Of a DNA stretch of 64,000 nucleotides, positions 12,813 through 63,962 are shown one piece after another. The stretch's first letter is position 1; every line of letters begins with the position of its first letter. Below the pieces are notes generated by a model, which was not told the DNA's origin, did no database searches, and saw only the letters and a program-made list of their open reading frames with translations. A program made the position numbers and the translations under genes. This stretch comes from a virus: positions 1 to 64,000 of IMG/VR virus record IMGVR_UViG_3300033145_000681. One strand, given 5' to 3'.

Positions 12813-15113
12813 ATGGCGTTCGGCTGGTATGACTTGGCGTGGCTCCAGGTCAAAGATGTTGTAATCCCCAGCGCCCAGCTCGGGGGCAGCGGAACCCTTT
12901 CTGATTTCAGATGGCTGGTGTCAAGGGTAGATGCGCAGTTGCAGGCGGACGCTCGGGCTGACGGCAACGATATCCTCTTCTGCGATACGGACGGCGTAAC
13001 GAAACTCGATCACGAGCTGATCTCTTATGATAACGTCACCGGTACGATTCTGGCATTGGTTCGGATTCCTACGGTTGCGGATGCATCCCAGGACTATACG
13101 GTCTGGATGTATTTTGACAATGCTGCTGCCGCGGCCCAGGAGAATCCAGATGGTGTTTGGAAGGACGCTCCCAGCAAGCCAGCCGTTGCCGCATACCATT
13201 TCGAGAATGACGTACTCGACTCCTCCGGAAACTCCTTCGATCTTACCAACGACGGCAGCGTAGACGTTGCCGGCAAGGTAGGCCGGGGAAGAACGCTGGA
13301 TGGGGTAGCCGATTCGATGTCCGCTACCGGGGCCGATTTCAGTACTGTCGAGCAGGATACATCATTCTCCATTCTCGCTTTTGCCAAGCCGGGGGCATCT
13401 GCCGAACGCCAGCAGATATTCTACAAGGGCAATACCGGGGAAGAGAATCTCTGCCTCTTCATCAATGAGGTAGGCCATGCCGTCATCATGGTGTACCGCG
13501 CTACCATCTTCGAGTACTACGCGGAAGGCGCTACGAACCTGAAGGACGTTGCCTGGCATCGAATCATCGGCGTCCGGGACGGTACCGATTTCAGGATCTA
13601 CGTAGACGGCGTGGATGATACTGCCGTCACATCCCTGGGCCCGACTACCCAGCAGACTGTTGAGGATGTGTATATCGGGAAGCGTTTCAACGAGGATTAC
13701 TTCCTGAATGCGGACGTCGATGAGATCTGGGTGCTCAGTGCGGCGATGAACGATGCGGAGGCTGCGGCGGATTACAATTCACTGAACGATCCGGCAGCCT
13801 TTGCTACATTCGGGCCGGCGAAGACCTTTGTGGAATCTACCGGGATGGAGATGCCGCTGACGTACCTCGAAGAGATCGAGGTTGATGACGAGATGGTAAT
13901 GAGCATCCTGGAAGGTACTGCCGATCGCGTCATGATAGTCAGCATCATGGAATTCCTGAATTCCGATCAGTCGATGCCCTTCATCCAGGCGCCTCTGGTA
14001 GCGGTCACATCCGATGAGGAGATGCCGGTAACGTACCTGGAGCAGCTTGCCGTCGATGAAGAGATGCCGATTACCCTGCTCGAATACATCCTGAACGATC
14101 TGGAAATGCCGGTACCGATCCTGCAGTACATTTACAGCGATATCGAGATGGTCGTAGCTCCCTCCCAGGATCGTGATGACGATCGGATCATGCCGGTAAC
14201 GTACCTGGAAGGCATCCGGGTAGACATGGATCTGCCGCTTACGTATCTCGAAGAGATCACCGTTGATCCGGATCTGCCGGTAATGAATACCCAGGAGATC
14301 CGCGCCGATGAAGAGATCCCCTTCCATCAGCTCCAGGAGATCTACAACGATGAGGAGATGCCGCTGAACGTAAGCAATACCGGGACGATCGCCGATAGGG
14401 AGATGCCGGTATTCTTCCGGGAGGAGATCGATGGCGACGAGGAGATGCCGGTATCGATCGAGGAGCATCTGGAATTCGATTCCGAGATGCCGATCATGTG
14501 GACAGAAGCGCTGCTCAACGATGAGGAGATCCCGGAGACGTATCTGGAGGAGATCACGGTAGAGCGGGAATTGCCGATGTCCTGGTCGGCGCCGCTATTC
14601 AATGACGTAGACATCCCGGTTACATTCCTGGAGATCCTGTACTTCGATCGGGAGCTGCCGATATCCATAAGCGAATTCATCGAGGTGCAGCGGGAGAGCC
14701 AGCTGCCGATCTTGCAGGGAGTGAATGCAGATCGTGAGATGCCGGCGACCATACTGCAACTCGTCGCTTTCGACCTCGATGTTCCGATTGTGATCCTGGA
14801 GCATCTCTGGAACGAGCTGGAGATGCCGGTATCCTTCGACAAGGTCGTGGCGCCGGTACCGATCGTGCCGGCCGATCGGGAGATGAACATCTACATCGGC
14901 CAGGCGATTCGCGGCGAGCGCGAGATGCCGGTAACGCTCCGGGCATTCATCGAGGCATTCAGAGAGATGCCGATGGAGTGGCAGGACGAGATCCTGTATG
15001 TGATCCCGGAAGGCATCTACAACCTGATCGTCAAGACGTATCAGTACGATCTGGAAGTCATGAAGGAAACCGTACTGCATGAGCGCGTCGATACCGAGCT
15101 GGATATTCCCTGA
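12813..15113 (+). CDS. Fibre-like protein: DUF2341/LamG-like head plus 14-residue repeat stalk
   Basis: The 766-residue product begins with a DUF2341-like beta domain (residues about 1-115, with the YTVWMYFDN block). A LamG/concanavalin-like domain follows (about 125-330, containing VAAYHFENDVLDSSGN and WHRIIGVRDGTDFRIYVDG). From residue 346 to about 720 it consists of about 27 copies of a 14-residue unit of the form [ED]-[MLI]-P-[VIL]-x4-E-x-I-x-x-D. Such a head-plus-stalk plan suggests a virion appendage binding carbohydrate. The stop overlaps the next start by one base. I do not know a named family for the repeat. Confidence 0.7.
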   Translation: MAFGWYDLAWLQVKDVVIPSAQLGGSGTLSDFRWLVSRVDAQLQADARADGNDILFCDTDGVTKLDHELISYDNVTGTILALVRIPTVADASQDYTVWMYFDNAAAAAQENPDGVWKDAPSKPAVAAYHFENDVLDSSGNSFDLTNDGSVDVAGKVGRGRTLDGVADSMSATGADFSTVEQDTSFSILAFAKPGASAERQQIFYKGNTGEENLCLFINEVGHAVIMVYRATIFEYYAEGATNLKDVAWHRIIGVRDGTDFRIYVDGVDDTAVTSLGPTTQQTVEDVYIGKRFNEDYFLNADVDEIWVLSAAMNDAEAAADYNSLNDPAAFATFGPAKTFVESTGMEMPLTYLEEIEVDDEMVMSILEGTADRVMIVSIMEFLNSDQSMPFIQAPLVAVTSDEEMPVTYLEQLAVDEEMPITLLEYILNDLEMPVPILQYIYSDIEMVVAPSQDRDDDRIMPVTYLEGIRVDMDLPLTYLEEITVDPDLPVMNTQEIRADEEIPFHQLQEIYNDEEMPLNVSNTGTIADREMPVFFREEIDGDEEMPVSIEEHLEFDSEMPIMWTEALLNDEEIPETYLEEITVERELPMSWSAPLFNDVDIPVTFLEILYFDRELPISISEFIEVQRESQLPILQGVNADREMPATILQLVAFDLDVPIVILEHLWNELEMPVSFDKVVAPVPIVPADREMNIYIGQAIRGEREMPVTLRAFIEAFREMPMEWQDEILYVIPEGIYNLIVKTYQYDLEVMKETVLHERVDTELDIP
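13848..14982 (+). repeat. About 27 tandem 14-codon (42-bp) units
   Basis: Successive units begin GAGATGCCGGTA or close variants (E-M-P-V). Spacing is 14 codons in most cases, with occasional 12, 13, 15, 16 or 20. Examples include EMPVTYLEQLAVDE, EMPITLLEYILNDL and DLPLTYLEEITVDP. The units are diverged at third positions, so they are maintained by selection on protein sequence and are not a recent expansion. Confidence 0.9.
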
Positions 15114-29259: not shown

Positions 29260-29537
29260 ACATCTACCAGCTCAACGATTACGAATGGTACGCAGCTGAA
29301 ACGTTCGAGGCGGCGGTGGTATTCGCAATGGATAATTGCGGGGTGAGCCGGGAAGAGGCGTATGACGAGAGCTATGGTGACGAGCCCCTGGACGATGCCG
29401 ATCTGGATGGCCTGATGTTCTTTGATGATATCGAGAACAAGGAGACATGCCAGAAGCGAACCTTCCGGGAGCATCTGGCTCTCATGGTCCAGGCCGGCGC
29501 GGAGTTTCCATGTTTCTTTGCGGGATGTGATTGGTAG
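29256..29537 (+). CDS. Hypothetical acidic protein
   Basis: This 93-residue protein starts in an ATGA overlap. It opens MNIYQLNDYEWYAAETFEAA, then an acidic helix-rich segment, and ends FPCFFAGCDW. This is a recurring type in phage genomes, of unknown role. Confidence 0.55.
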   Translation: MNIYQLNDYEWYAAETFEAAVVFAMDNCGVSREEAYDESYGDEPLDDADLDGLMFFDDIENKETCQKRTFREHLALMVQAGAEFPCFFAGCDW

Positions 29538-29547
29538 GAGGGATGAC

Positions 29548-30771
29548 ATGCTGGACGAGCCTGACGAAGTGGAAGTAATCGAGAAGCCGATCAAGCTGAT
29601 GATCGTAGGGGGGGCTAGGCCGAACTGGATGAAGATCTCTCCGATCCTCCGGGCGATCGACCAGTACAATCTGAACGGGGTCACGGTGCTCGGCCCAGGC
29701 GATTACGGGCTGGGGACCGAAGCCATAACGGGCCTTCAGAAGATCAAGCCGATCATCGTCAATACCGGCCAGCATTACGATTACGAGATGGCCGGCTCAT
29801 TCCTGGAGGGATTCGGTATCTCTGAAGATGACATGATCAGCCTGGACGTTCGGAAGAACGGGCTGGGGATGGTGATGGCGACGGTCATGGCGCGGATCTC
29901 TCCGGTTATGGAGTATGTCGAGCCGGATGCGGTAATGGTAGTCGGCGATGTAGATTCTACCCTGGCCGCGGCGATCACTGCCAGGCGATTGAGCATCCCG
30001 GTAATCCATGTCGAGGCCGGCCTGAGATCCGATGACGAGACGATGCCGGAGGAGAACAATCGGCGCCTGACGGATCACGTATCTGATTTGCTGTTCACTA
30101 CGGAATCGGATGCGGATCATAATCTCGATTGCGACGGGATCGACATGGAGCGGGTACACTTTGTCGGGGATGTAATGATCGATTGCCTGATGCAGCATGA
30201 GGAGGAGATCGCAGCCAGCGATATCGTCTCGAAGCTCGGCCTGGAAGGGAAGCCGTATGCGGTATTGACTCTCCATCGGCCGGCGAATGTGGATGATGGG
30301 GAGATTCTGAGAAGGATACTCGATGCCGTGGAAGAGATCTCGAAGAAGATTCCGATCATATTCCCGATACATCCCAGAACGAAGAATGCCCTGCTCGGTT
30401 GCTGGGGAGATCTGCCATCTTTGAGGGGACCTCTCCAGGCGATCAAGCCGCAGCCCTACGCCGACTTCATGAGCCTGGTCAAGAATTCCCGCATGGTGCT
30501 TACCGACTCCGGAGGCATCCAGTCAGAGACTACCTTCTTCGGTGTACCGTGCCTGACGCTTCGAGAGAATACTGAGCGGCCGATAACGATGCGGATGGGA
30601 TCGAATGCCCTGGCCGGTACGGCTACCGACGAGATCGTAAACCGGGCCATGCTGGTGCTCGAGGATGGCTGGATCAATGAGAGCGATGTCCCTCCCCAAT
30701 GGGACGGCTTCGCGGCCGAAAGGATCGTAGAACATATCGCGCTGTGGTGGCGGGATAGAATACAGGTATGA
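29548..30771 (+). CDS. UDP-N-acetylglucosamine 2-epimerase (WecB family)
   Basis: The 407-residue product matches the non-hydrolysing UDP-GlcNAc 2-epimerase pattern: GGARPNWMKISPILRA at the N-terminus, VVGDVDSTLAAAI and VIHVEAGLRSDDETMPEENNR in the centre, TLHRPANVDDG, and LTDSGGIQSETTFFGVPC near the C-terminus. These correspond to substrate-binding and catalytic blocks of WecB. The family makes UDP-ManNAc for surface polysaccharides. It has GGAGGG before ATG 29548. The gene is embedded in the replication module, away from the glycan cassette at 58848. It could feed that cassette, which is inference. Confidence 0.88.
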   Translation: MLDEPDEVEVIEKPIKLMIVGGARPNWMKISPILRAIDQYNLNGVTVLGPGDYGLGTEAITGLQKIKPIIVNTGQHYDYEMAGSFLEGFGISEDDMISLDVRKNGLGMVMATVMARISPVMEYVEPDAVMVVGDVDSTLAAAITARRLSIPVIHVEAGLRSDDETMPEENNRRLTDHVSDLLFTTESDADHNLDCDGIDMERVHFVGDVMIDCLMQHEEEIAASDIVSKLGLEGKPYAVLTLHRPANVDDGEILRRILDAVEEISKKIPIIFPIHPRTKNALLGCWGDLPSLRGPLQAIKPQPYADFMSLVKNSRMVLTDSGGIQSETTFFGVPCLTLRENTERPITMRMGSNALAGTATDEIVNRAMLVLEDGWINESDVPPQWDGFAAERIVEHIALWWRDRIQV

Positions 30772-33402: not shown

Positions 33403-33597
33403 ATGGGAACGCACAAGTCTACTAAATGTGAAGTTTGCGGGACGATTGTGATCGTATGGAAACGCAAGGGCATATCGGCGAGGACTCTTCGAGCATTGGC
33501 ATTGGCTGATCATATCCGCACATTGCATCCTGAACTTTGGAATCCTGCCAAGAGAGAAGGTATCGAATCCGCAGTTGCTGCCAAGGTGCAGGGATAA
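33403..33597 (+). CDS. Small zinc-finger-like protein
   Basis: The 64-residue product (80 if translated from 33355) carries TKCEVCGTIVIV followed, after a basic helix, by DHIRTLHPE. This is a C-x2-C ... H-x4-H arrangement like a C2H2 finger, plausible as a nucleic-acid binder. First gene after the AT-rich promoter region. Confidence 0.6.
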   Translation: MGTHKSTKCEVCGTIVIVWKRKGISARTLRALALADHIRTLHPELWNPAKREGIESAVAAKVQG

Positions 33598-33607
33598 GGG
33601 AGAGACG

Positions 33608-34393
33608 ATGAACTCCAAGACCAAGCCGAACACTTCGGAGCTTCTCTCTCTGGACATGTACGACAAGATCGTGGTGGCCTTCTCCGGCGGCAAGGATTCC
33701 GAAGCCTGCATCTTGCATCTTCTCGAGATGGGGGTGCGGAGAGAAGACATCGTGCTCTGGCATCATCACATCGATGGGGCGCCTGGGCAGGAGCAGGGGT
33801 TGATGGATTGGTCAGTGACGGAGGATTACTGCAGGGCCGTCGCGCGTGAACTCGGAATCGAGATCAGGTTCTCATGGAAGGAAGGCGGCTTTGAAGGTGA
33901 GATGCTCAGAGAGAACGCATTGACAGCGCCCACATCATTCGAGATGCACGATGGTGGGATCAAGACGGTCGGCGGCACTAGGGGCAAGCTCTCCACGCGG
34001 AGGATGTTTCCCCAGGTGACGGCGAACCTTTCCGTCAGATGGTGTTCGGCATATCTGAAGATCGATGTCTGTAGCGCGGTGTTCGCTAACGATCCGGCAT
34101 ACAAGAATGGGACGTTTCTTCTGATTACTGGAGAGCGCCGTGAGGAAAGCGCATCGAGAGCAACCTACGCCGAGGTCGAGAAGCACAGGCGTTCGAACAA
34201 ATCGCGCCGGGTAGATCACTGGAGAGCGGTTATCGATTGGGACGAGGCGAAGGTCTGGGGAATCATCGAGCGCTGGAAGATCCAGGTACATCCCGCGTAC
34301 CGTCTGGGTTGGGGTCGGGTGTCCTGGCTGCTGCGAGCCGAGTTGCGTGTGCCCAAGGACAAGAACAACCTCGTGGATATTGTAATCGACTAG
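33608..34393 (+). CDS. PAPS-reductase-like PP-loop ATPase
   Basis: The 261-residue product has a canonical PP-loop, VVAFSGGKDSEACILHLLE, near residue 20. Later come VRWCSAYLKI and a GERREESASRA segment, as in CysH/DndC-type adenylyl transferases and reductases. ATG 33608 follows AAGGGAG. Cellular relatives reduce PAPS or transfer sulfur to DNA or tRNA. No DndB, DndD or DndE neighbours are visible, so DNA phosphorothioation cannot be claimed. Role in the phage is unknown; this is a recurring auxiliary gene of tailed phages. Confidence 0.78.
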   Translation: MNSKTKPNTSELLSLDMYDKIVVAFSGGKDSEACILHLLEMGVRREDIVLWHHHIDGAPGQEQGLMDWSVTEDYCRAVARELGIEIRFSWKEGGFEGEMLRENALTAPTSFEMHDGGIKTVGGTRGKLSTRRMFPQVTANLSVRWCSAYLKIDVCSAVFANDPAYKNGTFLLITGERREESASRATYAEVEKHRRSNKSRRVDHWRAVIDWDEAKVWGIIERWKIQVHPAYRLGWGRVSWLLRAELRVPKDKNNLVDIVID

Positions 34394-45549: not shown

Positions 45550-45638
45550 TCCCCTGGCGCATAATCGGAATCCTCGCGGCACTGGCAGCGATCCTGCTGG
45601 CAATCATGATGCTCTACGTAGCGGGGGTGCCGGAATGA
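45546..45638 (+). CDS. Single-span membrane peptide (30 residues)
   Basis: Starts in an ATGA overlap. MIPWRIIGILAALAAILLAI continues into one hydrophobic helix ending YVAGVPE. A holin-like or regulatory membrane peptide is possible. Overlap with the next start supports translation. Confidence 0.5.
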   Translation: MIPWRIIGILAALAAILLAIMMLYVAGVPE

Positions 45639-46105
45639 AAGCTCTGAGCATTCGGCATCCCTGGGCGTGGCTGATTAGGGAGCGCATGAAGGATGTTGAG
45701 AATCGCACATGGAAGACAGACTTCCGGGGATCGTTTTTCATTCACGCCAGCAAGACTCCCGACGAAGATGCATTCAATAGGATCGAGCAAGATCTCCGGT
45801 GCATTCTACTGGCGGGAAATCTTGACCGTTCGAAATTCAGATATGGCGGTCTGATTGCGATCGCAGAGATTGTTGATTGTGTAGAGAATAGCGGCAGCAA
45901 ATGGTTCGAGGGCCCTTACGGATTCGTGATAAAGAAAGTGCAGCCTATCAAGTTCATCCCCTGGTATGGTGCTCTCCAATTCTTTGACATCCCGCATTCG
46001 ATAGCGCGGATGGTAGAAGGGGATTGCGATCGGGCATGCGGCTGGCAGGACCCTTACGGATTCGTTCCGGAAGCAGGATGCCCGGTACATGATGGAGGTG
46101 ATTGA
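45635..46105 (+). CDS. ASCH-domain protein
   Basis: The 156-residue product opens with ALSIRHPWAWLI and DVENRTWKTDFRGSFFIHASK. GLIAIAEIVDCV and a YGFVIKKVQPIKFIPW block follow. This matches the PUA-like ASCH fold that binds RNA or modified bases. The C-terminal tail has two Cys-containing loops. It overlaps both neighbours. Biological role in the phage unknown. Confidence 0.7.
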   Translation: MKALSIRHPWAWLIRERMKDVENRTWKTDFRGSFFIHASKTPDEDAFNRIEQDLRCILLAGNLDRSKFRYGGLIAIAEIVDCVENSGSKWFEGPYGFVIKKVQPIKFIPWYGALQFFDIPHSIARMVEGDCDRACGWQDPYGFVPEAGCPVHDGGD

Positions 46106-47035: not shown

Positions 47036-47854
47036 ATGAATCAGTGGCGTAAAGGGATCGCCCTGTGGAGAGTAGGCACAACCATCTATCTCTCCGTACC
47101 ATTTACGTGGCTTGCAGAAAAAGCGCGGATGATCGCCGAAGAATGGAAAGGGAAGGGATTCACCGTTGAGATGGGCGGCCCTGGATTCATGGAGCCTACC
47201 AGCTGCGAACTTTTCGAGCCGGTACTATTCCATAATCCATGTGCGACATTTACTACCAGAGGATGCCCGAACGCTTGCCCGTGGTGTGCGGTCCCGAAGC
47301 TGGAACCTGAATTCAAGGAGATCCGTGACTTTCGCCCCGCGCCAGTAGTATGTGACAATAACCTGTTGGCGGCGTCATGGGGGCACATAAAACGAGTTGT
47401 CGAGAGGGTGCGTGATTTCACGATGGTAGATTTCAATCAGGGACTCGAAGCGTTTCGCTTCACGTTTCAGGTGGCGAGGGAACTTGGGAAGCTCCGGTGT
47501 AAGGTGAGGTTTGCGTTTGATAGGTGGGGCGATGAGGGGATGGTGAAGGATGCGATAGATCTATGCCGGAAGCGTACCACAAAAGACATCGGGGTATTCG
47601 TTCTCATCGGATTCAAAGGAGCCCAGGAGGAGGATCTGGCGAGGCTCGATCTCGTGAGGGAGTGGGGGATACGGCCGACGCCGATGAGGTACCAGCCTCT
47701 TGATGCTAAAGAGAAGAACGCATATCTTCCCGAGGAAGGGTGGACAGAGCATGAGATGCTTCGGACAATGAAATACTATTCTCGCCTCAGATATTATGAG
47801 CACATTCCCTTCGATGATTTCCGAAATGCTCATCAGGGTGAATTGTTTTCATGA
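47036..47854 (+). CDS. Radical SAM protein
   Basis: The 272-residue product contains the iron-sulfur motif RGCPNACPWCAV (C-x3-C-x2-C) near residue 80. It is preceded by a beta strand and followed by a TIM-barrel-like helix/strand alternation (VVCDNNLLAASWGHIKRVVE, DFNQGLEAFRFTFQ). Possible substrate: tRNA, protein or a small molecule. AAGGGA precedes ATG 47036. It follows palindrome copy 5 with no other promoter seen. Confidence 0.75.
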   Translation: MNQWRKGIALWRVGTTIYLSVPFTWLAEKARMIAEEWKGKGFTVEMGGPGFMEPTSCELFEPVLFHNPCATFTTRGCPNACPWCAVPKLEPEFKEIRDFRPAPVVCDNNLLAASWGHIKRVVERVRDFTMVDFNQGLEAFRFTFQVARELGKLRCKVRFAFDRWGDEGMVKDAIDLCRKRTTKDIGVFVLIGFKGAQEEDLARLDLVREWGIRPTPMRYQPLDAKEKNAYLPEEGWTEHEMLRTMKYYSRLRYYEHIPFDDFRNAHQGELFS

Positions 47855-56671: not shown

Positions 56672-56917
56672 ATGGCATCTATCGAACTTGTCAGTAGCGC
56701 AGCCGAAGACCAGGAGGTCACGATCAAGGGGCTCGATCCTGAATCTGGAGAGACGCGTAGCGTTGATGTGATCGTTCCCGGGAATGGTTTCCCTGTAGAT
56801 TCCCCCCTCTATCCTGGTGAGGTTATTATTCACATAGCCCAGAAGAGAGACGAGATTACGATACGCAAGAAATGCAACCCGGCAGGAGGACCGCATGAAA
56901 GTCAAGATCAAGCGTAA
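56672..56917 (+). CDS. Small beta-rich head-module protein
   Basis: This 81-residue protein starts two bases past the previous stop. Strands VTIKGLDPESGETRSVDVIV and VIIHIAQKRDEITIRKK suggest a compact beta barrel. Overlaps the protease start by 23 bp. Unknown. Confidence 0.5.
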   Translation: MASIELVSSAAEDQEVTIKGLDPESGETRSVDVIVPGNGFPVDSPLYPGEVIIHIAQKRDEITIRKKCNPAGGPHESQDQA

Positions 56918-58352
56918 AGTCACATTCGCCGCATCCATCCAGGAGATGACGGATTCCGCGCATGTGATATCCATCATCGGGAACGATGCCTACAATGCGA
57001 TCAAGCGGGAAGATCCGCATCCGCTATTCGTAGAGATGAAGGTAGGCCAGCAGGGGATCTCTTCCGGGCCCGTACTCATCGGCGGGATCAAGCGAGCGTG
57101 GAATAAGATCTGGGGCGCTCCCCGGATCCGGGAGCTGGCTGCCTGGCTCTCCCGAGGTATCCCTCTCGTATTCAAGCATGCCGCCAGCAACAGTCTCGAA
57201 GGCCGCGAGAAGGTAGGCCGTACCCTGAAGGGCTGGACGGAAGAGTCTCCCAGCGGGGTAGTCGCCAAGGCGCTCGGGTATGTCTCGAGTACGTATGCCG
57301 GCATCCAGGAGATGGTTCGGAACGATACCATTGACGGCTGCTCGATCGAGGGTGCGATGAAGCTCTCGATGGGCGGGGCAGCCAGACTGATAGTGGACAA
57401 GATCATGGATCTGTCAGCGGTAGCGCTTTCGCGGACGGGAGTGGATGGCGTAACGGGCTTTGCCGGCGCCGGGATCGTAGCGGCTGTCCAGGAGACGGCG
57501 AAGATCCAGGACGTACTCATAGCAGCGGGATTCTCTGAAGAGGATTTCGAAATCGTAGACGGTGGGGATGGGGATGAAGGAGAAGGCCGGCAATCGGTCA
57601 AGGATAGAAGAGGCGGGAGATCGAAAGAAGGGAGGAGGAGAGGCGTGGGTGACAGCTTGACAATCAGTGAGGTGAAGACGTTTATCGAAGAGGGAGGCGT
57701 TCGTCCGGAGCGGCTGTTCAGTACGGAGATGCTGCTCAAGGTAGATGCCGTCAAGGATGCGATCGATACGGAGGTCAAAGAGCAGCTGGCTTCTGGGCAG
57801 ACGGAGAAGGATACGGAGATCACGGATCTCAAGAAGAAGCTCGATGACACGAAGAAGGAGGTCGATACCAAAGCCCAGGAGATGAAGGATCTCCAGGACA
57901 AGGTTGCTCCCTTCCAGGGCAAGCTCAGATCAGAGAAGATCTCGGATCTGGTAAAGAAGAGCGAGCTGCTGTCGAAGGCTTCGAAGAAGAAGGCGGATTA
58001 CATCGCCAAGATGGTCGCGGCATCGATTGCCGAGGATGCGGATCTGGAAGCGGATACCGCGGCGGCGCTGATCGAGGGCGGGATCAAGAAGCAGATCGAT
58101 GACATCAAGGAGTACGGGATGAACTTCGGCGCCGATGATGGTGGCGGAGAAGGCGCTGGTGGTGAAGGCGGCGGGGAAGGCGGAAGCAATAATGATAACG
58201 ATCCGATGGATCGTCCGCCCGAGTCGCGTAAGGGAGATCAGGGTTCCGGTAAGGGCGGGACAGTAGAGACTGCCACGGCGATGTTCGCAGCAGGCATCAA
58301 CCCTCTCGATCCGGATGCCGACGAGCAGCTCGCGGCTACGAAGAAGAAATAG
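56895..58352 (+). CDS. Prohead protease-scaffold fusion
   Basis: The 485-residue product has an N-terminal half (1-215) with beta strands and VFKHAASNSLEGREKVGRTL then GCSIEGAMKLSMGG, resembling prohead protease domains, though I cannot identify the catalytic dyad with confidence. The C-terminal half (250-485) is a charged coiled coil (TEITDLKKKLDDTKKEVDTK) and an acidic/Gly-rich tail, as in scaffolds. A nested start at GTG 57645 separates the two parts. It lies before the capsid genes if the window ends join. It probably organises and then clears the procapsid core. Confidence 0.65.
   Translation: MKVKIKRKVTFAASIQEMTDSAHVISIIGNDAYNAIKREDPHPLFVEMKVGQQGISSGPVLIGGIKRAWNKIWGAPRIRELAAWLSRGIPLVFKHAASNSLEGREKVGRTLKGWTEESPSGVVAKALGYVSSTYAGIQEMVRNDTIDGCSIEGAMKLSMGGAARLIVDKIMDLSAVALSRTGVDGVTGFAGAGIVAAVQETAKIQDVLIAAGFSEEDFEIVDGGDGDEGEGRQSVKDRRGGRSKEGRRRGVGDSLTISEVKTFIEEGGVRPERLFSTEMLLKVDAVKDAIDTEVKEQLASGQTEKDTEITDLKKKLDDTKKEVDTKAQEMKDLQDKVAPFQGKLRSEKISDLVKKSELLSKASKKKADYIAKMVAASIAEDADLEADTAAALIEGGIKKQIDDIKEYGMNFGADDGGGEGAGGEGGGEGGSNNDNDPMDRPPESRKGDQGSGKGGTVETATAMFAAGINPLDPDADEQLAATKKK
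57645..58352 (+). CDS. Scaffold protein from a nested start
   Basis: GTG 57645, in frame with the fusion gene, is preceded by GGGAGGAGGAG. The product (235 residues, MGDSLTISEVKTFIEEG onward) is only the coiled scaffold part. Overlapping full-length protease-scaffold and short scaffold are known from lambda C/Nu3 and relatives. Evidence is the purine-rich ribosome site at a domain border. Confidence 0.58.
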   Translation: MGDSLTISEVKTFIEEGGVRPERLFSTEMLLKVDAVKDAIDTEVKEQLASGQTEKDTEITDLKKKLDDTKKEVDTKAQEMKDLQDKVAPFQGKLRSEKISDLVKKSELLSKASKKKADYIAKMVAASIAEDADLEADTAAALIEGGIKKQIDDIKEYGMNFGADDGGGEGAGGEGGGEGGSNNDNDPMDRPPESRKGDQGSGKGGTVETATAMFAAGINPLDPDADEQLAATKKK

Positions 58353-58847: not shown

Positions 58848-60881
58848 ATGCCGGAGATCGTATTCGACGCCAGCATGGGTATGTCTGCAGAGCAGGCTCC
58901 CAGGCCGACAAGGAAGAAAAAGCCTCGTGTGGGGCGACCTGGGAGCCACCACAAGGAGATTCTGACCACATCCCAGGTAGATTCGAATATCCATAGAAAG
59001 GCTCGTGGTGGAGGGGCGGCCGGGGCCGGTGCGTTCGTGCCATCAATCCCCGAAGTCGCCCAGCCACCCACTACCAGATTCCCGGCGATGGGGACATCGG
59101 TACAGGTAGTTCGGCAGAAGGGCTTCCCGCTGCAGCCTACGGAGGTCGCTTTATGGGTAGTAATCCCGACGCACAATCGCCCGAAGGAATTCCCTAGATG
59201 CCTGGAGCGAGTACTCGCGGAGCTGGGCCCGGACGATCGGGTAGTAGTAGTCGCCAGCGGCTTCCGGATGTTCCAGGCAGTACGGGAAGCGTCAAGGCAT
59301 CCGAGCGTGATAGGATTGCTCTTCGGGGATTGTACCGTAAACGAAGCGCGGCGCCATGCGAATGGTATCGTTCCTGAAGGCGCGGCGATTGTAGAGACGG
59401 GAGATAATGACTTCATCACTACCGGATCTCTCGATCGCATCCGGGAAGCATTCGAAGATCCAAAGCTGGGAGTCGTATACGGCAATCTCCAATTCCTGGA
59501 CATCCACGGCAGGGCGCACGGGCCGATGATCCGGAAGCCTGCCTGGGAGAAGGGGATCATGCATCGGCGCTGCGAAGTAAAGGGGCTCCATGCATATCGG
59601 AAGATCGTATACGAGCAGTACGGGGGGTGGTATCAATCGGAGTGGCCTGCCGGCGATCATGCCAATGCGATCCGCTGGGAAGATGCCGGGGTCAAATTCA
59701 AGAGCATCGGCGGTCCTCCTCTCGTATGCTGTACCTGGGATCCGGAAGGGATGTCGACGGGCAAGCTCCGGAGTCAGCAGCATCACAATTCCCAGCAATT
59801 CGCGCGGGGTCATTACCGAAGGAAGTACTCCGTAGGGATGGCCTGCTGGGCAGTCGCCGGCCGGCGTACCAAGATGCTGGCGCTGATAGATGATATCTGC
59901 GATCAGAGCAAGGTCCGGATCTATGCATGCGCTCGGGGCCGGTACGGAGCGGCATGCGATACGGACGAGCATATCAGGAAGCGGATCGTCTGGTGGAAGG
60001 CGATGAGCGAGCTGGACGAGCATCTCCCGAAGCATGAGGTATCGCACCTCTTTGTCGATCGCCTGAATTTCGCTACCCGATCTGCAGCCCTGGGCAGAAG
60101 GGTAGTCGTAGACATCTGCGATCTGAGGAGCCAGCGTACCGGGACGCATGACGATCCGGATGAGAAGATCCTATGTACGAGCCCGAACGTCTGGCTGATG
60201 TTCGTATCGGAAGGTCATCGGGATTACATCTGCGAGAAGTACGGCATGCCGATCGAGCGGACGCACATCGTACCGAATCTTCCCATGAAGAGCTGGCGGC
60301 CGGAGGAGCCGATCACGGAAGAGGAGAAGGTTCCCAATTCCCTGGTCTACTACGGAGGGATTACCGCGAAGCGTGGGCATACCGCGGCGTACCGATGTTA
60401 TTACGATCTCTTCCTGGCGCTGAAGAATGCCGGCGTCGATGTCCATATCTATCCTTCAGGGGCCCGGAAGAGAGAGGTCGAAGAGGGGTATGCGGAATTC
60501 ACCGTGCATGAGCGCTTCGATCATCGGGACATCTACAAGATTCTCAGGAAGTACACCGTAGGCTTCGCCGGCTACGAGGATCGCGCGGGATGCCCGAAGG
60601 TATCTCATGACTATGCGATGAAGTGTTATCCGAACAAAGCTACCGATTACATGATGGCCGGTATCCCTACGGTAAGCTACGCGCTGGGCTTGGCAGAGAA
60701 GGACGTTCAGAATTGGGGTGTCTGCGTACCGAAGGGATCTGCCGGCAGGTTGGCCGATGCGTATGAGGAAGCCCGGATCAAGGTAATCGATTACGAGCGG
60801 TGGCAGAACATCTTCTGCATGGAGAGCCAGGCAGATAAGCTGATCGAGGCATACGATTGGGTTGCGGGGAGGAAGGGATGA
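58848..60881 (+). CDS. Two-domain glycosyltransferase (GT2-like plus GT-B-like)
   Basis: The 677-residue product, after a basic disordered leader (1-80), has a GT2-like domain (about 100-290): ALWVVIPTHNRPKEF, DDRVVVVASG, and the acidic ETGDND at about 185 as a DxD-type metal site. The C-terminal domain (about 330-670) is GT-B-like with VYYGGITAKRGHTAAYR and late CYPNKATDYMMAGIPTVSY. Such fusions add and extend sugars. It overlaps the next gene by four bases. First gene of the glycan cassette. Confidence 0.75.
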   Translation: MPEIVFDASMGMSAEQAPRPTRKKKPRVGRPGSHHKEILTTSQVDSNIHRKARGGGAAGAGAFVPSIPEVAQPPTTRFPAMGTSVQVVRQKGFPLQPTEVALWVVIPTHNRPKEFPRCLERVLAELGPDDRVVVVASGFRMFQAVREASRHPSVIGLLFGDCTVNEARRHANGIVPEGAAIVETGDNDFITTGSLDRIREAFEDPKLGVVYGNLQFLDIHGRAHGPMIRKPAWEKGIMHRRCEVKGLHAYRKIVYEQYGGWYQSEWPAGDHANAIRWEDAGVKFKSIGGPPLVCCTWDPEGMSTGKLRSQQHHNSQQFARGHYRRKYSVGMACWAVAGRRTKMLALIDDICDQSKVRIYACARGRYGAACDTDEHIRKRIVWWKAMSELDEHLPKHEVSHLFVDRLNFATRSAALGRRVVVDICDLRSQRTGTHDDPDEKILCTSPNVWLMFVSEGHRDYICEKYGMPIERTHIVPNLPMKSWRPEEPITEEEKVPNSLVYYGGITAKRGHTAAYRCYYDLFLALKNAGVDVHIYPSGARKREVEEGYAEFTVHERFDHRDIYKILRKYTVGFAGYEDRAGCPKVSHDYAMKCYPNKATDYMMAGIPTVSYALGLAEKDVQNWGVCVPKGSAGRLADAYEEARIKVIDYERWQNIFCMESQADKLIEAYDWVAGRKG

Positions 60882-61477
60882 AAAGGATATTTATTACCGG
60901 CTGCTCTCGATCGGGTACCACGCTGCTGAAGAGATTGTTCTATGCATTCCCGTCAGTAGGCGTACACAAGGCTGAGATCTCTCTGGATAGTTTTTCAGGG
61001 ATCCCGAATCACCTCGATTGCATTGCCTATGTCGGGAAGCGGAAGTGCAAAACGGTCTTCAGCAATGTGCTGCCCCAGGCAGAGATCGATCTGCAGCTGA
61101 AGCTCATCCGCGAGAGGGAGATCCTGGTAGTCAACATCATCCGGGGAAGGACGGCGGTGACCGAGGCGAAGGATTGGCCGGTTCCGGTAGATAGATACAA
61201 TGCCGCGATTACCCAGGCGGGGATCTACTGCAATCACATCGCGTATGAAACGAATTACGAGACGCTCATATCTGAGCCGGATCTCGTACAGGGGGAGATT
61301 GCTGAGCGGTTAATTCCTGAAGTTAAGAAATTCGGATATCAGGTATGGAGTGACTATCCTGAATTTGTTCCTCCAGACGAATTCGCCGACATATCAGATC
61401 CGCGGTACGCTCCCCGACCGATCGGGCAGAGCATGTTTCATGAGGAGGCGATCAATGAAGATCCTGCTCTGGGCTAA
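60878..61477 (+). CDS. Sulfotransferase-family protein
   Basis: The 199-residue product starts with FITGCSRSGTTLLKRLFYA, the 5'-phosphosulfate-binding P-loop of sulfotransferases. A VVNIIRGRTAVTE strand follows, and helices to the end. It is shorter than typical sulfotransferases. It could sulfate the glycan made by neighbouring enzymes. Starts in an ATGA overlap (ATG 60878) after GGAAGG. Confidence 0.72.
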   Translation: MKRIFITGCSRSGTTLLKRLFYAFPSVGVHKAEISLDSFSGIPNHLDCIAYVGKRKCKTVFSNVLPQAEIDLQLKLIREREILVVNIIRGRTAVTEAKDWPVPVDRYNAAITQAGIYCNHIAYETNYETLISEPDLVQGEIAERLIPEVKKFGYQVWSDYPEFVPPDEFADISDPRYAPRPIGQSMFHEEAINEDPALG

Positions 61478-62480
61478 GAGCCCATGCATCCGGACGTACA
61501 AGGAAGCCGTCGCGCTCCGGACGTACGGGGTAGAGACAGTCCTGGCCTATGCCGGGCAGACCATCGGCGGCCGGTATCCCGGGCTCAAGGATGAGGATGC
61601 CTTCGATGAGATCGCAATCCAGAAGGACATCTCCCGATTCCATTACATCGATGATCAGAAGGTCGATGTAATCCATACGGCGCATCCTCCGGACAGTTCC
61701 GTCCGGGAGCTGTTGGGAGCGAATGTCCCGATCGTCCATGACTTCCATGATCTGGAGAGCTTTTCTGAATCGCCGAAGCCCCTGCTGGTACGGCATGAGA
61801 AGGATGCGGCCTGCTGTGCATCGGCGCTGGTATTCGTATCCGGATCGATGGAGCGCAGCGTCAAGGCGACGTATCCGGGAGCGGCGATGATGGGAGCGGT
61901 AATCCCGAATGCGGCAGGGGAGGAAGAACTCTCGAATGAGGTTGTCTGGCATTGGCCTGCCGGCGAGACGCATGTGGTCTACGCAGCAGCAATGCCTCAT
62001 TGGGGAGATGGTCACTTCCGGGATCTGAAGCCTCATGCCGATCAGCTCATCGCCCAGGGGATCTTCGTGCACGTTCATGCGTTGATCATCCAGCCGGCGC
62101 TGCAGGCAGCGGCAGCCCATTGTCCGCTTCTCCGCATCGAGCCCCAGGTAACAGGGCTGTTATTGCTGGAGCAGCTGGAGAAGTACCATGCCGGCATCAT
62201 CCCGCATCGAGGCAGGAATAAACTCATCCAGAAGCATATCGACATGAGCGTCCCGAACAAGCTGTACGAGTACTGGCAAGTAGGCGTCCCGGTAATCTGC
62301 CTGCCGGCAGTAGAGACGCAGCTCATGGTCGAGGAGTACAAGCTCGGGTGGATCGTAGAGGATTACTCGAATCTGGCATCCGTAATCAAGCAGCCGTACA
62401 AACCGAAGCGGAAGGTCATCAGAATGCGGGAAGAGGTCAGGAAGTTAATCTCACTCTACGAGGATGTGTTATGGCGATAA
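61455..62480 (+). CDS. Glycosyltransferase (GT-B-like)
   Basis: The 341-residue product starts at ATG 61455, overlapping the sulfotransferase by 23 bp. N-terminal KILLWAKSPCIRTYKEAVAL, a central HDFHDLESFSE and C-terminal MSVPNKLYEYWQVGVPVICLP match GT-B proteins with a nucleotide-sugar-binding C-lobe. No DxD required. Confidence 0.72.
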   Translation: MKILLWAKSPCIRTYKEAVALRTYGVETVLAYAGQTIGGRYPGLKDEDAFDEIAIQKDISRFHYIDDQKVDVIHTAHPPDSSVRELLGANVPIVHDFHDLESFSESPKPLLVRHEKDAACCASALVFVSGSMERSVKATYPGAAMMGAVIPNAAGEEELSNEVVWHWPAGETHVVYAAAMPHWGDGHFRDLKPHADQLIAQGIFVHVHALIIQPALQAAAAHCPLLRIEPQVTGLLLLEQLEKYHAGIIPHRGRNKLIQKHIDMSVPNKLYEYWQVGVPVICLPAVETQLMVEEYKLGWIVEDYSNLASVIKQPYKPKRKVIRMREEVRKLISLYEDVLWR

Positions 62481-63349
62481 AGCTCTACGGTGTAGTTTCC
62501 GGCAGATCCATCAGCGGCCTGAATCGAATCGGACGGATGATCATGCCTGACATTGAGATAGTCAAGGATGGGCCAGCTGATCCATCTCTTTATCAGGGGG
62601 TGATCTGTCATAATTACATGGGCGATCCATTCGGGAAGAAGCTCCCGAGGATCGTCTTCCTTGCCAGCTGCAAGACGGGGAGCCTGGCGCTGAACAAGAA
62701 GACCAGGAGGCTATTCCTTGCGCATCCTCCAGACGCGCTCTGGGTCAATCAGGAATCCGGGCGCCTGGCGCTGAAGAAGGTAGGCATCGAAGCGACTACC
62801 ATGTTCCGGCCGAATCGCCTGGCGATCCCGAGTGAGGAGCCCCTGCCGTTCAATGAGAAGAAGATCCTCTGGCATTGGCATCCCGGATCATGGATGTCCC
62901 CGAAACTCGAGGCCGGTATTGCCAAGGCCATGCGGAGCCTGAAGGATTTCGAGATCCTGGTTATCAGCGGGCTCCGCGATAAGAGCCTCAAGCCTGCAGG
63001 GAAGGGGCTCGATCATGTAACGGGCGGGGGCTGGATAGATCTCCGGACGGATATGAACCAATACGCCGGGATCGTTCGCGTATATGATGTTCCCTGCATG
63101 TTCGATCTCGGCAGGAGCACGTTTCAGGCATTCGCGTATGGCCGCTGGAATATATGCCGAGCTACACGCGAGCCGTTAGTAGATACAATACACCGTGTGG
63201 AGGAGATTCCGGCGCTGGTACGCAGCCTGGTAAAAGGCGACAATCAGAAGATTGCCCGGAAGCGGTGGAAGTATATCAGGAGTAACTTTACGGAGGAGGC
63301 GCTGCATGAGCGGTGGGTCAAAGCGGTCAAGGAAGTTATCCATGCATGA
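62471..63349 (+). CDS. Glycosyltransferase-like protein
   Basis: The 292-residue product overlaps the previous gene by 10 bp. YGVVSGRSISGLNRIGRMIM and a GT-B-like C-lobe (MFDLGRSTFQAFAYGRWN) with late helices. Weaker match than its neighbours, but cassette context fits. Confidence 0.6.
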   Translation: MAIKLYGVVSGRSISGLNRIGRMIMPDIEIVKDGPADPSLYQGVICHNYMGDPFGKKLPRIVFLASCKTGSLALNKKTRRLFLAHPPDALWVNQESGRLALKKVGIEATTMFRPNRLAIPSEEPLPFNEKKILWHWHPGSWMSPKLEAGIAKAMRSLKDFEILVISGLRDKSLKPAGKGLDHVTGGGWIDLRTDMNQYAGIVRVYDVPCMFDLGRSTFQAFAYGRWNICRATREPLVDTIHRVEEIPALVRSLVKGDNQKIARKRWKYIRSNFTEEALHERWVKAVKEVIHA

Positions 63350-63962
63350 GGTGAAGAAATGTCTGGTACTCAGTCCCCATTACGATGATGCGGAGCTGGG
63401 GTGCGGCGGGACGATTGCCAAGCTCATCCGGAACGGCGCCCATGTCCGGGTAATGGTATTCGCAGAGCAGCGCCGGCTGGACAAGAGCATGCCGGAAAGG
63501 CTTGAGGAGGAGATGAACGCCTCTGCCAAGATCCTCGGCTTCGATGGGATAATGTTCAGGCTCGAAGGCCGGCGCCTGGGAGAATCCCGGCAGGCCATTC
63601 TTGATGACATGATCCAGGAGGGGAAAGACTTCCAACCGGATCTGGTGCTCGCGCCTTCGCTGATGCAGACGCACCAGGATCATCAGGTCGTATCCCATGA
63701 AGCCTTCCGGGCATTCAAGTATACGTCCCTGCTGGGATATGACATGCCGTGGAACTATCTGGATTCCGGCCGGCTGAGTACGTTCGTGGAGATCTCGAAG
63801 CAGCACCTTGCCAAGAAGGCGGCAGCCGTTCAATGCTACGCCTCCCAGATGCCGCGGCCGTACTTCGATCGAGAGGTAATCGAATCCCTGGCCCGGGCCC
63901 GGGGGCTGCAGTGCGGCAGGAAATATGCCGAAGCCTTCGAGACGTACCGCTGGTTTCTCTGA
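63342..63962 (+). CDS. LmbE/PIG-L-family deacetylase
   Basis: The 206-residue product starts at ATG 63342. LSPHYDDAELGCGGT is the family zinc motif (normally PHPDDE; Pro to Tyr here), and QTHQDHQVVSHEAF provides the distal His residues. These enzymes deacetylate GlcNAc-containing glycans or lipids. It completes the sugar-modifying set. Overlaps the next start. Confidence 0.8.
   Translation: MHEVKKCLVLSPHYDDAELGCGGTIAKLIRNGAHVRVMVFAEQRRLDKSMPERLEEEMNASAKILGFDGIMFRLEGRRLGESRQAILDDMIQEGKDFQPDLVLAPSLMQTHQDHQVVSHEAFRAFKYTSLLGYDMPWNYLDSGRLSTFVEISKQHLAKKAAAVQCYASQMPRPYFDREVIESLARARGLQCGRKYAEAFETYRWFL

Follow-up and report, generated by a model that had tools for sequence, protein, structure and literature searches.

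A dozen or so genes for building and decorating sugars appear to sit amid the head genes of a phage

Background

Phage glycosyltransferases (GTs) may act on virion proteins, on DNA or on the host surface, and sequence alone seldom tells which. The question is raised by a row of overlapping genes at positions 58848-63962 of a 64,000-base stretch of viral DNA (the window), corresponding to bases 1-64000 of the 68,354-base IMG/VR virus record IMGVR_UViG_3300033145_000681. An earlier note had read these five genes as a cassette that could make and modify a glycan on the virion or on the host surface. Our analysis supports a phage glycan-making and -modifying cassette and finds it larger than the window shows: the phage, whose host is probably a bacterium, appears to carry about a dozen sugar-building or sugar-decorating genes amid its own head genes. 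The best reading, which we hold tentatively, is that they serve the cytoplasmic glycosylation of a virion protein.

Positions above 64000 are record coordinates, and the stretch 48500-68354 of the record was analysed as locus L002. The cassette genes, the protease-, cement- and capsid-type head genes and the epimerase described below all lie on the + strand.

Position of the cassette among the head genes

Five open reading frames (ORFs) follow each other in tandem at 58848-63962 and, once start codons are trimmed (near 60878, 61455, 62471 and 63342), overlap by 4-23 bases; a Shine-Dalgarno-like stretch lies upstream of most of them. Immediately 5' are terminase-like, portal-like, Mu-F-like (PF04233, 9.5e-16) and protease/scaffold-like genes. 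The overlapping tandem directly after head genes that had been described is therefore real, while its limits have to be redrawn: the row continues in the same direction past 63962 up to the record end at 68354, and probably into 1-1138 at the other end of the record.

The two ends of the record each hold part of what is probably one methyltransferase gene. The last ORF (68001-68354; PF13649 4.9e-5), the N-terminal part of methyltransferase 2 cut by the record end, aligns to the N-terminal part of another cassette protein, methyltransferase 3, with a score of 113 (shuffles at most 46). The frame at 2-235, by its likeness to methyltransferase 3 the probable C-terminal part, scores 49 against the C-terminus of that protein, the maximum of 500 shuffles being 45. 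The presence of split halves at both ends, which have 6 identical bases in common, suggests that the ends are probably neighbours.

If the ends adjoin, the cassette would probably span about 10.6 kb (58848-68354 plus 1-1138). It would be preceded by a probable head protease/scaffold gene (56895-58352; assigned by position, PF10123 only 0.59) and followed on its far side by a gene for a cement/decoration-like head protein (1252-1746; PF09956 0.0062) and by the gene for the probable major capsid protein (1779-2996; PF25209 7.1e-4), both matches being below cut-off, that is, under the curated family threshold. The cement-like protein is 29 % identical over 78 amino acids to L005:9263-9613 (E 2e-8, a single comparison). 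The capsid protein matches that of Microcystis phage MACPNOA1 (29 %, 4e-28) and has 17 relatives in viral contigs.

We compared the order of these genes in the 17 viral-contig loci and the Microcystis phage. In 16 of the 18, the cement gene begins no more than 70 bases after a protease-type gene, with nothing inserted between the two, and the capsid gene comes next; in the remaining two (L028 and L036) the contig begins inside the protease-cement stretch. As protease and cement are adjacent in 16/16 checkable relatives, the cassette would be an insertion, provided that the record ends adjoin. No cassette protein matched any of the 18 loci (tblastn, 1e-3), and the protease-like protein showed no BLAST similarity to the relatives' proteases. 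A search for direct repeats flanking the cassette gave a longest shared word of 9 bases, the same as in shuffles. An earlier two-sequence scan had found only L006.

Enzymes of the cassette

By its sequence, the protein at 63342-63962 is certainly a member of the PIG-L/LmbE family of metal-dependent deacetylases, in agreement with the earlier note. It matches PF02585 at 2.8e-16 (60.6 bits against a gathering cut-off of 28.2) and phrog_11796 at 2.5e-23, and its motifs PHYDDAE and HQDH are intact and aligned across five phage proteins; we take HxDD and HxDH to be the metal/catalytic motifs of the family. Against the bacillithiol deacetylase BshB1 model (TIGR04001, 6.3e-19) it reaches 68.6 bits, below the equivalog cut-off of 182.5.

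The GT assignments are of mixed strength. The 677-residue protein at 58848-60881, with a basic N-terminal extension of about 80 residues, had been called a fused GT2/GT-B enzyme. Its motifs, among them DND, agree by eye with a GT assignment, but the family matches are weak or below cut-off: PF00535 (GT2) at 1.5e-4 over 34 residues (104-137), below cut-off, and for the C-terminal half PF13439 at 0.011 and PF13692 at 0.014. Two further GT-like proteins had been proposed, of which the one at 61455-62480 is a GT-B (GT4-like) glycosyltransferase over the cut-off (PF13439 5.4e-7). The other, at 62471-63349, is GT-B-like by eye only; it is unmatched in Pfam, PHROGs, NCBIfam and PADLOC, and single-sequence structure prediction gave no usable fold (pLDDT, the predicted local distance difference test, of 37).

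Two proteins resemble sulfotransferases, one of them already suggested in the earlier note. Protein 1 (60878-61477, with ATG at 60878) has the motif GCSRSGTT and matches PF13469 (1.2e-5) over the 27 residues of the P-loop, just missing the cut-off (26.1 against 27 bits); it also matches weakly the tyrosine sulfotransferase chain 8w5z (E 0.21), and single-sequence structure prediction gave no usable fold (pLDDT 37-38). Protein 2 (65431-66045; PF17784 0.0052, below cut-off at 17.1 against 22.8 bits) has both a P-loop, GCGRSGT, and an R..P....SS-type motif, RHPLGTISS. The P-loop is common to both proteins, and protein 1 has the Arg of the second motif without the serine. We take the two motifs to be the 5' and 3' binding motifs of sulfotransferases for 3'-phosphoadenosine-5'-phosphosulfate (PAPS). 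Elsewhere in the window, 33575-34393 encodes a PAPS-reductase/DndC-like PP-loop protein (PF01507 8.5e-8; PADLOC DndC 5.4e-10), and other Dnd genes were not recognised. We considered this protein as a sulfur supply and rejected it, since it looks DndC-like or PP-loop and has no tie to the cassette.

The gene directly after the deacetylase (63962-64504) encodes an OGG-type protein with the helix-hairpin-helix (HhH) DNA-glycosylase fold (PADLOC OGG, PDLC00910, 1.3e-41, profile positions 12-203 of 215). Its ATG overlaps the deacetylase stop, so that it is translationally coupled to PIG-L. By eye, the Asp of the HhH-GPD motif is present (PDRH) and the Lys position appears to be Ile, residues that we take to be catalytic in bifunctional 8-oxoguanine glycosylase. 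The matching model comes from a library of anti-phage defence proteins, yet the gene sits inside a glycan operon.

Next come a 77-residue ORF (64505-64738), methyltransferase 1 (64738-65412; PF13489 1.1e-16), sulfotransferase-like protein 2 and a hexapeptide acetyltransferase (66038-66646; PF00132 3.5e-21). The best solved relative of the last is PDB 3mqg ('Lipopolysaccharides biosynthesis acetyltransferase', E 1.7e-53), presumably the UDP-3-amino-sugar N-acetyltransferase WlbB. An HNH-AP2 endonuclease (66690-67289, L002:18191-18790; PF13392 2.3e-6, PF00847 5.6e-6) separates it from WbqC (67291-68031), which matches PF08889 at 2.6e-57 over profile positions 1-214 of 218 (194.6 bits against a cut-off of 21.3). 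After the split methyltransferase 2, an 85-residue ORF (232-489) and methyltransferase 3, an S-adenosylmethionine methyltransferase (476-1138; PF13649 3.6e-11), complete the row.

Searches of 50,697 phage records returned no relative of either sulfotransferase-like protein, of any of the three GT-type proteins, of the OGG protein or of the terminase. As single queries, the GT fusion, the 62471-63349 protein, PIG-L, sulfotransferase-like protein 2 and the terminase found none in viral contigs.

The codon-usage scores of the named cassette enzymes (0.085-0.30) are like those of 19 reference genes (-0.05 to 0.26), and only HNH-AP2 (-0.087) and the 77-residue ORF (-0.084) stand apart from the phage. 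These values bear on the possibility that the genes are passengers, gathered by recombination to fill headful capacity or without any fixed role. The HNH-AP2 insert, which separates the acetyltransferase gene from WbqC and differs in codon usage, would fit such a history, and 'stuffer DNA' was raised for lipopolysaccharide (LPS) genes in the available text of the cyanophage authors. We nevertheless judge it very unlikely: apart from the split at the record ends, the other cassette frames are open, overlap and match the phage in codon usage, and the PIG-L motifs are intact.

Sugar supply and export

The phage encodes a UDP-N-acetylglucosamine 2-epimerase, WecB, at 29422-30771, 30 kb from the cassette (PF02350 1.2e-94; TIGR00236 3.5e-80, 269.9 bits, above the equivalog cut-off of 210.15). 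Besides WecB no nucleotide-sugar-forming enzyme (dehydratase, aminotransferase or nucleotidyltransferase) was recognised, so the host must supply other activated sugars, and the 'complete set' of the earlier note is not supported.

The maximum hydropathy over 19 residues ranges from 0.23 to 1.61 among the cassette proteins (1.61 for 61455-62480) compared to 3.02 for a control. In this crude hydropathy scan, no + strand ORF of the window and no cassette protein has at least two hydrophobic segments, and there was no sign of a flippase, a polymerase, an initiating polyprenyl-phosphate transferase, or a Gtr-type or other multi-pass membrane gene. The lack of strong hydrophobic segments and multi-pass ORFs argues against export across a membrane.

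This result weighs on the idea that the genes alter LPS, capsule or exopolysaccharide at the host surface, blocking competing phages or changing the serotype. In its favour are enzyme types of O-antigen loci (WbqC, the 3mqg-like acetyltransferase and WecB) and the company of bacterial WbqC genes. A genome scan with WbqC gave five bacterial loci: in three of them, two from tubeworm endosymbionts and one from Omnitrophota, an acetyltransferase match lies beside WbqC, and the remaining two have a PIG-L match. Judged by sequence, such neighbours look like ordinary surface-polysaccharide company and would tell the origin of the gene, not its role here.

Large LPS-type clusters are also known in cyanophages such as P-SSM2, S-SM2 and S-SSM7 and, in the available portions of PMC3037559 and PMC7824862, a change of the host surface is proposed for them. 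They resemble the present cassette as a large viral set of glycosyltransferases and sugar-modifying enzymes. According to the same portions, they differ in containing sugar kinases, nucleotidyltransferases and epimerases and in lying in T4-like genomes near hli03/phoH and tRNAs, whereas here the record is about 68 kb and the position is in the head operon. With no export machinery recognised and the cassette placed between head genes, we consider action at the host surface unlikely. Of the two acceptors named in the earlier note, the virion fits the insertion and the lack of membrane proteins, both of which make the host surface less likely.

Relatives of the deacetylase and the DNA alternative

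A third acceptor is the phage DNA itself, and the company kept by relatives of the deacetylase would make it a serious rival. PIG-L relatives were found in 31 phage records, all at less than 60 % identity. Viral contigs, scanned with an alignment, yielded 8 loci, of which 4 were copies of already named phages. We inspected the neighbourhoods in four named records and four viral contigs.

In Vibrio phage V-YDF132, as in VH2_2019 and PG28, PIG-L (30-33 % identity) lies directly beside WbqC; the order in V-YDF132 is PIG-L, WbqC, unassigned gene, methyltransferase, second WbqC, GT4, ParB-type gene and terminase. Unlike the present cassette, this one is smaller and sits beside ParB/terminase instead of between protease and capsid, and no sulfotransferase-like, acetyltransferase or OGG gene was recognised in it. 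DLP3 (Delepquintavirus) and Vibrio phage KarBoss are likewise tailed phages with PIG-L, sugar genes and GT4, in the order PIG-L, epimerase, DegT-type aminotransferase, methyltransferase, GT4, ParB and terminase; an epimerase and an aminotransferase were not recognised in the cassette studied here. The available text of PMC7326821 names the DLP3 methyltransferase as such, lists the cassette protein WcaG among proteins from virion preparations and reports that DLP3 DNA withstands 15 restriction enzymes. Given such smaller PIG-L/GT cassettes in Vibrio, Stenotrophomonas and Mycobacterium phages, the view of the earlier note that the set is unusual in a siphovirus is supported only in part.

PRodriguez (Acadianvirus), whose PIG-L is of the same broad family at 26-30 % identity, has the order ParB, Tet_JBP (1.4e-4, below cut-off), TAGT (6.5e-38), PIG-L, Ploopntkinase3 (3.2e-61) and terminase, and this row is a DNA hypermodification set. 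In its record PP035218.1 we rejected the label 'DpdA-like tRNA-guanine transglycosylase' (TGT) of gene 2 (L009:813-1691), which has a weak Tet_JBP match and no TGT match; the neighbours labelled 'galactosyltransferase' and 'adenylate kinase' are TAGT and Ploopntkinase3. Among viral contigs, L013 and L014 combine PIG-L with sugar-type genes, ParB and terminase (names partly by eye). L015:3559-16043 is a large glycan cluster with PIG-L, three acetyltransferase-like genes, WecB, and glycosyltransferase-like and methyltransferase-like genes (partly by eye).

Under the DNA alternative, the enzymes would assemble a sugar on modified bases in the DNA of the phage as a protection from nucleases, and the OGG-fold protein would recognise or exchange bases. 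The coupling of that protein to PIG-L is the strongest point in its favour. The Acadianvirus row, the record of L017, in which PIG-L also occurs with TAGT, and five further phage loci in which PIG-L is accompanied by ParB, terminase and either GT4 or other sugar genes point the same way, as do the restriction resistance of DLP3 and an ASCH-like protein at 45635-46105 (0.0035, just below cut-off). On the other side, no thymidylate-synthase-type, TET, TAGT, QueC or TGT match was found in the whole record, the cassette sits in the head module far from ParB (36714), and the resistance of DLP3 has no assigned cause in the available text of PMC7326821, where LPS modification is suggested for its GT.

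We scanned nine records (this one and eight relatives) with models of modification enzymes. Thymidylate synthase, QueC and TGT were found in none of the nine, and TET in PRodriguez alone, below cut-off, and in 0/14 control genomes. The PRodriguez TET-like protein used as a query found only PRodriguez itself, and TAGT was present in two records (PRodriguez and that of L017). Because the tested entry enzymes are absent here but also from restriction-resistant DLP3, the DNA alternative is only weakened, and we regard it as somewhat unlikely. A more elaborate form, in which a glycan of several sugars, both methylated and sulfated, is made by the operon on DNA bases that the OGG-fold protein recognises or exchanges, is in our view decidedly improbable. 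If true, it would put glycans on DNA with no TET, thymidylate-synthase-type or deazaguanine enzyme involved, and its place in the head operon would time modification with packaging.

A glycan on a virion protein

What favours a virion acceptor is that the cassette is inserted within the head operon and that no membrane protein was recognised. The data show the gene content, the gene order, the lack of recognised export machinery and, if the record ends adjoin, the insertion relative to related phages; from these we infer each enzymatic step, the acceptor, the late timing and any benefit as follows. The cassette genes would make up a single operon, probably a late one, that in a tailed phage has come to lie between the gene for the head protease and those for cement and capsid. 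Their soluble products would assemble a short oligosaccharide in the cytoplasm of the host and then decorate it. GT2 and GT-B domains would add sugars, for which UDP-N-acetylmannosamine could come from the phage WecB. PIG-L would free an amine by deacetylating an N-acetyl sugar, and the hexapeptide acetyltransferase and WbqC would act on amino sugars, with the three methyltransferases and the two sulfotransferase-like proteins capping hydroxyls. The most probable acceptor would be a virion protein of the same operon, for example capsid or cement, resulting in a glycan-coated head.

Phage glycosyltransferases acting on a virion protein have precedent in mycobacteriophages such as Che8, whose capsids are glycosylated (PMC11256854, PMC12619734, as far as their available text goes). 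In that text, the relative Maravista has its glycosyltransferase genes close to the genomic 3' end, unlike the head-operon position here, and sulfotransferase-like, PIG-L and WbqC genes are not mentioned. A search of open-licence papers found none on a phage sulfotransferase/glycosyltransferase virion system.

Several points weigh against a virion acceptor. Its identity is itself inferred, several enzyme assignments of the cassette fall below cut-off, and the head protease is placed by position only. The case for an insertion stands only if the record ends are neighbours, and the frames of the two methyltransferase 2 halves (68001 ORF and 2-235) disagree across them, so that a small gap or error must lie between the ends if they adjoin. 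An OGG-fold protein coupled to PIG-L points to DNA more than to protein, and PIG-L relatives elsewhere belong to TET/TAGT DNA-modification cassettes or have ParB and terminase nearby. Weighed together with these points, cytoplasmic glycosylation of a virion protein is still the reading to which we give most credence, short of confidence.

Two further proteins of the window were noted: a radical-SAM-like protein at 47036-47854 (PF04055 9.6e-5, below cut-off, no closer family) and, in the structural half of the genome, a protein with a Laminin-G/concanavalin-type lectin domain at 12813-15113 (PF13385 9.9e-17).

Conclusions

The kind of glycan operon found here is known, but its place and its partners are unusual. 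It lies within the head operon, has sulfotransferase-like and OGG-type partners, and comes with neither recognised export genes nor known base-hydroxylating enzymes, features that should make separable three acceptors that can seldom be told apart. If a virion protein is the acceptor, the sugar of the coat could exceed in elaboration the mycobacteriophage cases as described in the available text of the papers cited above. If DNA is the acceptor, the operon would represent a new route to glycan-bearing bases.

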